From NCBI GenBank assembly GCA_017307505.1, contig JAFKEE010000052.1, positions 1 through 64,000 of the forward strand: a stretch of 64,000 nucleotides of DNA. The letters are read 5' to 3'. Origin of the DNA: Acidobacteriota bacterium. Its GTDB lineage: Bacteria > Acidobacteriota > Terriglobia > Bryobacterales > Bryobacteraceae. Position 1 is the first letter of the stretch; every line of letters begins with the position of its first letter. Position numbers and translations under genes: made by a program. Below, piece after piece: positions 60,591 to 64,000 of this stretch. Under the pieces are notes generated by a model. It worked only from the letters and a program-made list of their open reading frames with translations, was not told where the DNA came from and did not search any database.

Positions 60591-62036
60591 CTAGTATTTG
60601 ATGTAAACCGTCTTGTGATCGCTATAGAACTCCATCGCCGCCGGGCCCTGTTCCTTGGGACCGAAGCTCGAGTCCTTGCTGCCACCGAACGGCAGTTGAT
60701 ACTCGACACCGGCGCTGGGCAGATTTACCGTCACCAGGCCCGCCTCGATGCCATAAATGTACTCGAACATGCGCGAAAGATTAGTGGTCTGGAGCGAAGC
60801 CGACAGGCCGAAATCACTGCCGTTGGCCAGTTGCATCGCGTGCTGGAAGTCCCGCGCTTTCAGGATGGCCATCACTGGTCCGAAGATCTCTTCGCGGGCG
60901 ATCACCATGTCCTCGGTGACGTTCGCGAATACGGTGGGCTCGACGAAGTAGCCCTTGTCGTAGTCTCCACCCGTCAGGCGATGACCGCCGCACAGCGGCT
61001 CGCCGGCCTCTTTGCGGCCGATTTCGATGTAACGCAGCACCGTGTCCATCTGGCCTTCGTCGACGCACGGACCGATGTCGATGCCGGCCTGCATGCCGTT
61101 GCCGACCTTCAACTTCTTTGTGCGCTCCACCACGGCAGCGACGAACTTGTCGTAGATGCCTTCCTCGACGATCACGCGGGAGGTGGCGGTGCACTTCTGG
61201 CCTGTCGAAAAGAACGTGGCATTCACGCAATTCTCGACGGCTGAGGCGAAGTCGGCGTCGGCCAGCACGATGGTCGGGTTCTTGCCGCCCATTTCGAGCT
61301 GGATGCGCAGGTGCCGTTTCGACGCCTCGGCATGAATCCAGTTGCCGATCTCGCAGGAGCCCGTAAAGCTGATCGCCTTGATCGGCTTCGCGTTCACGAT
61401 GGCCGCGCCCAGGGTTCCGCCGCTACCGCCGATGAAGTTCACAACACCCTTGGGGACGCCGGCCTCGTGGCAGGCTTCAATGATGCGCCAGGCGCTCAAC
61501 GGCGCGGCGGACGCCGGCTTCATCACCACCGTGTTCCCGCAGATGAGCGCGGGCGCCAGCTTCCAGGCCGGGATGGCGCTGGGGAAATTCCAGGGTGTGA
61601 TCAGGCCCACGACACCCACCGGCTTGCGCAGCGCGAACATGTGGACACGATCGCGCTCGCTCGGGGCCATGACGCCCGCCATGCGGGAGCCCTCGCCGGC
61701 GAAGTAGCGGAAGATGTTGATGGAACGCCGCACCTCACCCTTGGCTTCGGGCAGGGTCTTGCCTTCCTCGCGCGTCATCTCGGCGCTGATCTGTTCGAAC
61801 TTGCGGTCGAGGATGTCGGCGATCTTGTACAGCAAGGCTCCGCGGGCCGGGCCGCTCATGGTCGACCACGCCGGCAGCGCGCGCTGCGCCGCTTCGGCTG
61901 CCCGCTGGATATCCTCGGCCGAACCCTTGCCATGCAGTCCGACAACTTCGCTGGTATCCGCCGGATTGCGATTCTCGAAAGTGGGCCCTTCGACCCACGC
62001 GCCGTCGATGTAATTCGGAAAGATGGGTGTGCTCAT
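60591..62036 (-). CDS. Aldehyde dehydrogenase, alpha-ketoglutarate-semialdehyde type
   Basis: A 481-residue NAD(P)-dependent aldehyde dehydrogenase. Active-site residues are in order: Asn in TPWNFPS, Glu in LEMGGKNPTIV, and the nucleophile Cys in FFSTGQKCTATSR. The closest resemblance by eye is with alpha-ketoglutarate-semialdehyde dehydrogenases (YcbD/GucD-like). With the downstream FAH gene 15 bases away it could complete oxidation of a sugar acid to 2-oxoglutarate. It follows lemA by nine bases. Confidence 0.92.
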   Translation of the reverse strand: MSTPIFPNYIDGAWVEGPTFENRNPADTSEVVGLHGKGSAEDIQRAAEAAQRALPAWSTMSGPARGALLYKIADILDRKFEQISAEMTREEGKTLPEAKGEVRRSINIFRYFAGEGSRMAGVMAPSERDRVHMFALRKPVGVVGLITPWNFPSAIPAWKLAPALICGNTVVMKPASAAPLSAWRIIEACHEAGVPKGVVNFIGGSGGTLGAAIVNAKPIKAISFTGSCEIGNWIHAEASKRHLRIQLEMGGKNPTIVLADADFASAVENCVNATFFSTGQKCTATSRVIVEEGIYDKFVAAVVERTKKLKVGNGMQAGIDIGPCVDEGQMDTVLRYIEIGRKEAGEPLCGGHRLTGGDYDKGYFVEPTVFANVTEDMVIAREEIFGPVMAILKARDFQHAMQLANGSDFGLSASLQTTNLSRMFEYIYGIEAGLVTVNLPSAGVEYQLPFGGSKDSSFGPKEQGPAAMEFYSDHKTVYIKY

Positions 62037-62045
62037 GATCTGTCT

Positions 62046-62612
62046 CTAGAACTTCACAGCCGGCGCGGTCCGGGCGCCTGGCTCCGTTTTGAAGTAGTCG
62101 TCGTTGCGATGGAAGCCCATCATCCCGGCGAACAGGTTGGTGGGGAACAGGCCGATGCTCGTGTTGTACGTTTGTACGGTTTCGTTGTACTTCCGGCGTT
62201 CCACCGCAATGCGGTTCTCCGTGCCGGCCAGTTCATCCTGCAATCGCATGAAATTCTCGTTCGACTTCAGGTTGGGATAGTTTTCGACCACGACCAGCAG
62301 GCGGCCGATCGCGGAATCCAGTCCCTGGTTTGCCTGAATCTTCTCCCCGGGTGTCCTGGCGTTCAACAGCGCCGAGCGGGCATTAGCCACGGTCTCAAGA
62401 ATCTGCTTTTCCTGGGAAGCAAAACCCTTTACCGTTTCCACCAGGTTCGGAATCAGGTCGGCCCGGCGCTGCAGCGCCACATCCACCTGCGACCATGCGC
62501 CGCGAATCGCCTCCTGTTTCGTCACCAGTTCATTGTTGGCCGAGGCGGCCTTGCCGCCGACGATCAGCACGAGCACCAGAATGATGCCGCCGATAATCAA
62601 TCCAGTCTTCAT
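62046..62612 (-). CDS. lemA: LemA-family protein
   Basis: The 188-residue protein has one N-terminal membrane span (LIIGGIILVLVLIVGG) and the LemA helical core: NNELVTKQEAIRGAWSQVDVALQRRADLIPNLVETVKG and ENFMRLQDELAGTENRIAVERRKYNETVQTYN. Met at 62612 follows GAGG by eight bases. LemA proteins are often beside TPM-domain genes, as here, with a nucleotidyltransferase-fold gene placed between. The function is unknown. Confidence 0.95.
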   Translation of the reverse strand: MKTGLIIGGIILVLVLIVGGKAASANNELVTKQEAIRGAWSQVDVALQRRADLIPNLVETVKGFASQEKQILETVANARSALLNARTPGEKIQANQGLDSAIGRLLVVVENYPNLKSNENFMRLQDELAGTENRIAVERRKYNETVQTYNTSIGLFPTNLFAGMMGFHRNDDYFKTEPGARTAPAVKF

Positions 62613-62622
62613 GGGTAAATCC

Positions 62623-63342
62623 TCACCGCTCCAGTCGATCGACCACGGCGACCAGTGCCGCGATCTCCTCAAGGTACGTTGAAAAGAGACTGCCGGGGTC
62701 CAGGCTGCGGGGCCGGGTTTGACCCTCGCGGAGACCTAACAGCATATCGAACGCGCGCCCTTCTATGCCAAAGGACTCGCGCAGCTGGCTCACCACTTCC
62801 CGTTTGGGCCAGGGTGCCGCATGACCCGCCAGCAGCAAGGCATGCCGAGCCAGTACACAAAACGTCGAAACCGAATCCGCCATCAGGCGCAGCATCAGAT
62901 CGCGGTCACTGAGCACACCCGCCGCCTTCTGCCGCAGCCTCAGAAGTTTTGCCCGCAACTCGTGCTCCACCTGCGCCCGGTAAAATGCGTCGTCGATGGT
63001 CAGGCCGGCCGTGATGTCCTCACCGTGCAGCACCCGGTGGCGTTCCGCGATGTCGTGGTATTCGATGGGGAAACAGTCGGAAGAGGTCAACACCTCGTCG
63101 CGGCTCATCAGTAGCGGCGCAGGGTTGCCTTTCTCCCGCCACCATTTGAACACCGGCTCCGACGCTTCCAGTTCCTTCGGACCGATCTTATCCAGGACGC
63201 ACATTACATTCAGATCGGAATAGACTCCGTGCACGTCGCCGCTGGCGCCGGAGCCATACAGAATGACCGACCGCAACCCCTTGCCGTGCGCCTTCTGGAG
63301 TTTCTCGACGAGCTGGTTTAACAAACGATCCATCGGCTCCAT
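62623..63342 (-). CDS. Nucleotidyltransferase-fold protein
   Basis: The 239 residues carry a nucleotidyltransferase-like start: SVILYGSGASGDVHGVYSDLNV, where the usual GS...DxD has Asp43 followed by Asn45 instead of the second Asp. A helical domain follows (ERHRVLHGEDI, MLRLMADSVSTFCVLARHALLL). The missing acidic residue questions metal-dependent transfer activity. It sits between TPM and LemA genes with gaps of 12 and 10 bases and is surely co-transcribed. Possible roles are regulatory ligand binding or modified nucleotidyl transfer; neither is shown. Confidence 0.85.
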   Translation of the reverse strand: MEPMDRLLNQLVEKLQKAHGKGLRSVILYGSGASGDVHGVYSDLNVMCVLDKIGPKELEASEPVFKWWREKGNPAPLLMSRDEVLTSSDCFPIEYHDIAERHRVLHGEDITAGLTIDDAFYRAQVEHELRAKLLRLRQKAAGVLSDRDLMLRLMADSVSTFCVLARHALLLAGHAAPWPKREVVSQLRESFGIEGRAFDMLLGLREGQTRPRSLDPGSLFSTYLEEIAALVAVVDRLER

Positions 63343-63354
63343 CGGTATCCTCCC

Positions 63355-64000
63355 TTACCAGTCACTGGACGCCCCGCCGCCGCCCGAGTCCCCGCCTCCG
63401 AATCCGCCAAAGCTGTCGCCGGAATCGTAGCCGCCAAACCCGCCGCTGCTGCGTGTGCGTGATCCGCCCCCGCCCAGCAGTTGACCCAAAATCATGCCTG
63501 CCAGGAAGCCACCGCCTCCACTGCCGCCGCCATAGCCCCCGCGGCCGCTTCGTCCGCCGCCGAAAAAGAGCATCAGCAGCATCAGGCCGCCGACCACAAC
63601 CACAACTTCCCAAGGGAAACTCTCTGGCCTGGGCCGCGAGTGGCGCATGGGGGGCGCCATGCCGATCTGTACGCCCTTCGACTGGGCGATCTTCTCGGCG
63701 ATGGTGCGCGCGGCGTCGGACAAGGCCTGGGCGTAATTGCCCGCCCGCAGCGAGGGCCGCATCTCCCTCAGAATGCCACCGGCGTTGCCGTCCGGAATGA
63801 TCGGCTCCAATCCGTATCCAACTTCCAGGCGCGTCCGCCTGTCGTTGATGGACAGCAGCAGCAGAACCCCTTCGTTGTTCTTCTTGCTGCCGACGCCCCA
63901 CTTGCGATACAGCACGTTGGCGACATCTTCGATCGGCTCGCCTTCCAGACTGGTGATGGTCACCAGGGCAATCTGGGCGCCTGTCGCATTCTGCACCTGG
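63355..64000 (-). CDS. TPM-domain membrane protein, 5' end beyond window
   Basis: Only the C-terminal 214 or so residues are inside the window; the frame stays open to the window edge. A TPM_phosphatase domain is visible (TGAQIALVTITSLEGEPIEDVANVLYRKWGVG, NEGVLLLLSINDRRTRLEVGYGLEPIIPD). A membrane span follows (WEVVVVVGGLMLLMLFFGGG) and a very long Gly/Ser-rich tail ends at SSDW. Such tails are usual in this family. It is the first visible gene of the six-gene run, 12 bases before the nucleotidyltransferase-fold gene. Confidence 0.9.
   Translation of the reverse strand, partial: QVQNATGAQIALVTITSLEGEPIEDVANVLYRKWGVGSKKNNEGVLLLLSINDRRTRLEVGYGLEPIIPDGNAGGILREMRPSLRAGNYAQALSDAARTIAEKIAQSKGVQIGMAPPMRHSRPRPESFPWEVVVVVGGLMLLMLFFGGGRSGRGGYGGGSGGGGFLAGMILGQLLGGGGSRTRSSGGFGGYDSGDSFGGFGGGDSGGGGASSDW

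Follow-up and report, generated by a model that had tools for sequence, protein, structure and literature searches.

What is a protein with the fold of a nucleotidyltransferase and a changed active site doing between a TPM-domain membrane protein and LemA? This question is raised by the last 2 kb of the DNA analysed here (positions 1 to 64,000 of contig JAFKEE010000052.1, from a bacterium of the Bryobacteraceae, phylum Acidobacteriota; "the window" is this whole stretch of 64,000 nucleotides), in which the genes for the membrane protein (TPM), the nucleotidyltransferase-fold protein (NT) and LemA lie head-to-tail on the minus strand. Proteins of the LemA and TPM families are widespread among bacteria and the role of the pair is not settled; phosphatase or nucleotidase activity has been reported for some members of the TPM family.

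We propose that TPM, NT and LemA make up one inner-membrane unit, in which NT would be an AadA-fold adenylyltransferase without catalytic activity, kept as a soluble cytosolic adaptor. We give this reading a probability of about 0.55. The initial annotation of the locus had pointed to an undescribed membrane-associated system, a suggestion which the results below support.

Conservation of the operon

The three genes are as closely packed as the initial annotation had described them, with gaps of 12 bases between TPM and NT (63343-63354) and of 10 bases between NT and LemA (62613-62622); the first gap contains GGGAGGA, directly ahead of the start codon of NT. The TPM gene extends 155 bases past the window, to its start codon (contig position 64155), and is complete (266 amino acids). 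It scores 107.5 bits against PF04536 over the part in the window and 133.7 bits over the full gene (cut-off 22.1), and LemA, which has a single N-terminal membrane segment, scores 205.7 bits against PF04011 (cut-off 26.2), so that both belong to these families. In profile searches of its own genome, LemA, TPM and NT of this kind are each found once. The nearest named relatives of NT come from metagenome-assembled genomes (MAGs) of Acidobacteriota, for example an isolate of Ca. Solibacter usitatus (74% identity) and a Paludibaculum sp. (69%).

Genome searches covered the phylum Acidobacteriota. The NT of the window, used as a single query, has relatives in 46 of the 61 genomes searched, its own included, and an alignment of 35 NT rows (A1) yields hits in 171 of the 299 genomes of the class and in 87 of 297 across the phylum, some of the latter matches being short and near the threshold. 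The NT loci sampled are a part of these genome matches, together with 80 loci from named records (the best 80 of 240 relatives); further NT matches within some genomes, for example G146 with three, were left out. After identical proteins were collapsed there were 215 NT rows, from 34 family codes and the named records. The genes of L030 and L047 are broken or incomplete. Gene neighbourhoods were counted in the 162 loci that extend 1.4 kb or more to either side of NT, the 53 other rows having less than 1.4 kb on one side.

TPM and LemA both stand beside NT, on the same strand, in 148 of these 162 loci. The gene order therein (T for TPM, N for NT, L for LemA) is TNL in 132 loci, NTL in 12, TTNL in two, LTN in one and TLN in one. 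Seven of the 14 exceptions are loci of a sister type that is described below (L049, L050, L237, L255, L264, L267 and L268); in the others, NT has TPM only (L031, L034, L112 and L245), LemA only (L022 and L108) or neither partner (L167). The tree requires at least four changes of gene order, a count which includes an NLT row (L180) from outside the 162 loci. It is a "quick" tree of 91 rows that keeps the motif columns, has long rows (L050, L252 and L268) and has 44 of its 88 inner branches weak, so that the numbers of changes taken from it are rough. The trio is spread over the phylum, far beyond close relatives, and its linkage has outlasted reordering.

The presence of NT also goes with that of TPM. 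In the taxonomic order of the window, 89 of 103 genomes have an NT match; 80 of these 89 were searched for TPM, and 77 have it, 76 of them in a single copy. As for the three others, the contig ends beside NT in G019, G031 has a diverged TPM-like open reading frame (ORF; 6.9e-10) and the NT match of G197 is only at 1.9e-4. TPM is found in none of the 14 NT-negative genomes of this order, seven of which still have LemA. Counting G197 as NT-negative, 77 genomes have both genes, two (G019 and G031) have NT only, none has TPM only and 15 have neither (Fisher p 1.5e-15, kinship ignored).

Two loci with a changed NT motif, L236 (genome G532) and L245 (G330), both of f23, have TPM beside NT and no LemA in the stretch read; G532 has two TPM genes in a row. 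Acidobacteriota-like versions of a gene of the operon are also found in MAGs titled Arcobacter sp. (L079) and Acidimicrobiia (L112). These record names are probably wrong; on the tree, L112 falls inside the clade of the window's family.

Fold and active site of NT

The NT of the window, on its own, matches no Pfam family up to E 1, and the NTP_transf_2 profile finds no match in its genome at E 0.001; this profile is matched by 27 of 35 NT relatives up to E 0.1 (best 5.7e-06). The AlphaFold2 model (pLDDT 93.0, pTM 0.88) is confident. It aligns over the whole length of NT with the aminoglycoside adenylyltransferase AadA/ANT(3'')(9) (7uy4_A: Z 16.1, root-mean-square deviation (rmsd) 3.0, 219 residues aligned, 12% identity) and likewise with AAD(9), the best Foldseek E being 1.7e-06. 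The model therefore indicates that NT has the two-domain architecture of AadA-type enzymes, a nucleotidyltransferase domain followed by a HEPN-like helical bundle. A comparison with viral structures gives three matches under E 0.001, all of them called nucleotidyltransferases. A HEPN-type R-x4-6-H string is present anywhere in the last 122 residues of 151 of 215 rows; in the window the match is R122-H127, at the start of the first helix.

Judged from the ratio of non-synonymous to synonymous substitution rates (dN/dS), NT is under strong purifying selection, with values of 0.030 and 0.031 against two close congeners and of 0.193 against a more distant one for which dS is near saturation, and is thus a real gene. 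Against one of the close congeners, the ratio is 0.047 for LemA and 0.093 for TPM. Natural fusions of NT with TPM or LemA were looked for and rejected: each of the seven long ORFs checked contains a single family domain, and the long stretch N-terminal to it resembles the extension that results from too early a start codon in GC-rich DNA.

Where AadA has YGS...SDID, NT has YGS...SDLN. The initial annotation had read Asp43-Leu-Asn45 in place of the DxD motif of active enzymes (DxE in ANT(4')), and this is confirmed, the protein reading YGSGASGDVHGVYSDLNVMCVL. The replacement is a property of the family. Active-site residues were counted in the 193 linked rows outside the NTL order, the NTL branch (14 rows) being treated separately. 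Asn45 is found in 185 of the 193 rows and the D/N pair in 180, so that DxD is not what the homologues keep: Asp45 occurs in two rows (SDYD in L219 and L239), which belong to one genus code and represent a return to DxD, or its survival, inside the DxN family. The view that NT is not a standard active enzyme is supported accordingly.

The NTL branch has gone further. None of its 14 rows has DxN, GS is kept in only two of the 12 rows with full flanks, and the operon persists. The motif was lost elsewhere on the tree too, in the f23 and f81 rows, which keep the gene and its partners; the minimum number of changes between DxN and its absence is six. The model of a motif-less NT (pLDDT 91.8) has the same series of helices and strands, with AAD(9) (Z 13.7, rmsd 3.3, 209 residues aligned) and ANT(3'')(9) (Z 13.6, rmsd 3.4, 217 aligned) as best matches. 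The motif-less genes are open and constrained, with dN/dS of 0.25-0.26 in three pairs whose dS is 0.5-1.0; the f23 pair is saturated and gives no ratio. Twelve motif-less proteins match no nucleotidyltransferase family in Pfam, only two weak and unrelated ones, and plain annotation would therefore miss their identity.

The residues W68, P76, E83, D89, F91, E94, G107, R122, E126 and R137 are conserved both in the branches that have the motif and in those that lack it (the 179 rows used here were picked for having the motif and are not usable for its frequency). We read them as the structural core plus a partner-binding face; with the exception of G107, they are specific residues to mutate.

Function of NT

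Since the NTL branch has lost DxN and kept the operon, the predicted fold and purifying selection, NT is best read as a pseudo-enzyme and a cytosolic partner subunit, rather than as a nucleotide sensor everywhere. A cytosolic location is expected because hydropathy reveals no membrane segment in NT. TPM has hydrophobic windows at residues 3-9 and 178-185, which suggests a signal-like segment ahead of the TPM domain and a single membrane segment between this domain and the glycine tail, with the folded domain probably working outside the membrane. NT is best explained as an adaptor or an assembly factor, being a transferase fold without catalytic residues that stays beside a glycine-tailed membrane protein: it would bind the cytosolic side of TPM, of LemA or of both, and help to assemble or gate the TPM-LemA complex, whose output may be chaperone-like. 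It is possible that the pocket of NT still binds a nucleotide, without catalysis, in most lineages. As a soluble, putative third subunit with near-constant linkage to the pair, NT provides a bait for pull-downs, a structure target and a handle on the function of TPM and LemA. NT is also a documented case of a transferase fold that loses its active site as operon and fold stay.

Several observations weigh against this proposal. In more distant families, eight of 13 NT-negative genomes have TPM, in all eight cases adjoining LemA, so that NT is dispensable to the pair. Neighbouring genes may disappear together through a single deletion or one missing contig, and the co-occurrence of NT and TPM therefore argues only weakly for dependence. 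The glycine-rich tail is alike in the printed TPM proteins with and without NT, for which reason we rejected it as a mark of dependence on NT. Last, most lineages show almost no variation at GS, D43 and N45, as would be expected of a pocket in use, and position 89 is acidic in 99% of the 193 rows, D89 aligning by sequence with the catalytic Glu of AadA.

The conservation of this pocket would suit a regulatory nucleotide sensor, a role that had been suggested in the initial annotation. GS-D43-x-N45 would then be a non-catalytic binding site for ATP or some other nucleotide, and its occupancy would switch the TPM-LemA complex. Asn could replace Asp with the pocket kept, and GS-D-x-N is retained in the sister group as well as in 180 of the 193 linked rows, which speaks for the suggestion. 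What it lacks is generality: the 14 rows of the NTL branch, mostly devoid of GS too, and the f23 and f81 rows keep the gene and its partners without the motif, so sensing through the pocket cannot be what every lineage requires of NT. A sensor fits only if sensing was lost in these rows, and we consider it unlikely, though worth keeping in mind.

The acidic residues invite another idea, that NT is an active nucleotidyltransferase with an unusual metal site (D43 with D89 or E94) and acts on LemA, TPM or a small molecule, by AMPylation or another modification. D43, D89 and E94 are nearly invariant, two rows have Asp45, and the ANT(4') structure 6p06, going by its entry title, has E52 at the second position, which is therefore not always Asp. 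However, Asn is not a carboxylate. The secondary structure of the model places the third carboxylate on strand 77-80, where 0-1% of the 193 rows have an acid; the profile comparison with three AadA proteins aligned residues 7-50 only, short of this region. In addition, the block from D89 to E94 stays in the NTL branch, in the absence of DxN. We regard enzymatic activity as improbable, more so than sensing.

It may also be asked whether the genes are functionally linked at all, or whether the synteny of three housekeeping genes has merely been inherited. The flanks are indeed partly conserved: among 46 full-length named loci, an aldehyde dehydrogenase is present in 35 and an M16 peptidase in 26, hence this family has a longer syntenic block than the three genes. 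Yet reordered operons, among loci spread over 34 family codes, still hold the three genes together, which favours function over inert synteny, and NT co-occurs with TPM in the window's order; mere inheritance is very improbable. The weakest possibility, which was already disfavoured, is a resistance enzyme or a part of a toxin-antitoxin or defence system (AadA-like, MNT/HEPN-like or HalB-like): the best fold matches (ANT(3'')(9), AAD(9), HalB and HEPN/MNT) and a weak PADLOC match to PDC-S09 (E 1.3e-08, residues 4-52) recall such systems, but the best NCBIfam ANT model gives 19.4 bits for a cut-off of 350, a plasmid search with the NT of the window returned no match, and the operon has TPM and LemA beside NT instead of a separate toxin gene.

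Sister proteins beside other glycine-tailed membrane proteins

A sister group of DxN NTs is found beside other membrane proteins, which have tails rich in Gly and Cys, in all eight of its loci, and a maturase of the type that acts on RiPPs (ribosomally synthesized and post-translationally modified peptides) comes next in seven of the eight. By profile, the neighbour of NT is a TIGR04222 membrane protein in L049, L237, L255, L264, L267 and L311; the neighbours in L268 and L050 have no profile match. A fixed rule (at least 40% Gly and at least three Cys in the last 40 residues) recognises the tail in five of the eight loci, compared to none of the 529 ORFs in 80 named TPM-type loci. In L237, L255 and L267 the tail is slightly under 40% Gly and was read directly. 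The membrane protein is followed by an MNIO maturase, by profile, in L264, L267, L237, L268 and L311, and in L049 by a sub-threshold match (22.8 bits, cut-off 25) in a piece cut by the end of the locus.

The sister NTs keep DxN; in the six compared, position 94 is always Lys and W68 is mostly replaced by Ala. An alignment of sister NTs (A4) searched against 395 genomes gives six strong members at E 5e-70 or better, of which L311 is new and the other five were known, and the next match is a TPM-type NT at 1.5e-40. The most diverged sister NT is that of L050, whose position on the tree is unsure.

Two of these loci deserve a separate description. L050 (188-2767, minus strand) has the NT paralogue, then a secreted or membrane protein with a GGCGGGGCGGGGCGG tail, which has no profile match, then a radical SAM/SPASM protein; this cluster looks like one of the RiPP type. 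In L255 (1-2771, minus strand), NT and the TIGR04222 protein with its Gly/Cys tail are followed by a TrkA-N plus ion-channel gene in place of a maturase.

What the sister loci have in common with the TPM operon is a glycine-tailed membrane protein, and such a protein may be the common partner of NT. It is possible that the sister DxN NTs of L049, L237, L264, L267, L268 and L311 are an unrecognised partner gene of clusters that combine a Gly/Cys tail with MNIO. This leads to a tentative generalisation, which we hold with less assurance than the proposal for the TPM operon: dead NTs of the AadA fold would be dedicated cytosolic partners of glycine-tailed membrane proteins in general, whether TPM accompanied by LemA, TIGR04222 accompanied by an MNIO maturase or a further type accompanied by a radical SAM maturase, and would handle the membrane protein or its tail; in the versions with Cys in the tail, they could be the maturase partner that many TIGR04222-MNIO clusters lack. 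On this view, TPM-LemA and TIGR04222-MNIO would be two forms of a single membrane machine. The sister loci tie the TPM-LemA pair to membrane proteins with Gly/Cys tails whose genes are accompanied by RiPP-type maturases.

Features of the locus and flanking genes

Coordinates are collected in Table 1. The operon is flanked, about 10 bases after LemA, by an aldehyde dehydrogenase gene (60591-62036, minus strand); an M16 peptidase gene (contig 64160-65443, minus strand, in locus L002) ends just ahead of TPM.

Table 1. Features of the TPM-NT-LemA locus, in window coordinates, and what each assignment rests on
Feature	Position	Strand	Basis
TPM-domain membrane protein, operon gene 1	63355..64000 (in window)	-	PF04536, E 5.8e-31
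Glycine-rich C-terminal tail of TPM, end GGFGGGDSGGGGASSDW	63358..63546	-	sequence reading
NT, operon gene 2, 239 amino acids, putative pseudo-enzyme	62623..63342	-	model pLDDT 93.0; AadA/ANT(3'')(9) match over residues 1-239, Z 16.1
N-terminal nucleotidyltransferase-fold domain of NT, about residues 1-110	63013..63342	-	model secondary structure; Pfam NTP_transf_2 in 27/35 relatives
G30-S31 of NT, presumably the phosphate-binding GS of the fold	63250..63255	-	G30 in 208/215 and S31 in 197/215 aligned rows
D43-L44-N45 of NT (DxD or DxE in active relatives)	63208..63216	-	D43 in 192/215 and N45 in 193/215 aligned rows
D89-x-F91-P-x-E94 block of NT	63061..63078	-	conserved even in rows without GS/DxN
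C-terminal HEPN-like helical bundle of NT, about residues 118-236	62635..62991	-	secondary structure; HEPN chains align with residues 120-239, Z up to 10.7
LemA, operon gene 3, 188 amino acids, one N-terminal membrane segment	62046..62612	-	PF04011, E 3.8e-61; hydropathy

Comparison with known systems

NT shares with AadA/ANT(3'')(9) and AAD(9) the whole two-domain fold and the YGS and SD of the motif. It differs from them by its low identity (12%), by DxN in place of DxD, by a family score far below the cut-off and by its operon with TPM and LemA. The same two folds, the nucleotidyltransferase domain and the HEPN-like bundle, make up the MntA-HepT (MNT-HEPN) modules and HalB. In NT they form one fused chain, the catalytic Asp pair is lost and the partners are membrane proteins; the place of the separate HEPN toxin gene of MntA-HepT is taken by TPM, LemA, the M16 peptidase and the aldehyde dehydrogenase.

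On the side of the membrane partners, LemA also adjoins a membrane protein in LemA-TPM and LemA-DUF2207 pairs, the latter described in PMC12631010; these pairs have no NT gene. In Flavobacterium columnare, according to PMC13236525, lemA and a TPM gene rise together in an sppA mutant whose envelope is disturbed. The ydjFGHL genes of Bacillus subtilis encode a TPM-domain membrane protein with a low-complexity segment, as here, whose partner is PspA and not LemA plus NT. TPM domains next to PspA have been proposed to be chaperone-like in membrane-complex assembly (PMC11237479), and the text of that paper contains neither "nucleotidyl" nor "LemA".

The TIGR04222-MNIO clusters resemble the operon by a membrane protein with a low-complexity, Gly-rich tail, and the sister DxN NTs belong to such clusters in Acidobacteriota; they differ by the Cys residues of the tail, the maturase enzyme and the absence of LemA. 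Many of them appear to lack partner genes according to a survey (PMC12452194) whose text has no word starting with "nucleotidyl". In open-licence papers we found no description of a TPM-NT-LemA operon or of a pseudo-nucleotidyltransferase partner of TPM, LemA or TIGR04222. The parts of the operon all belong to known families; what is new to us is how they are combined, and that the active site is lost in this setting.

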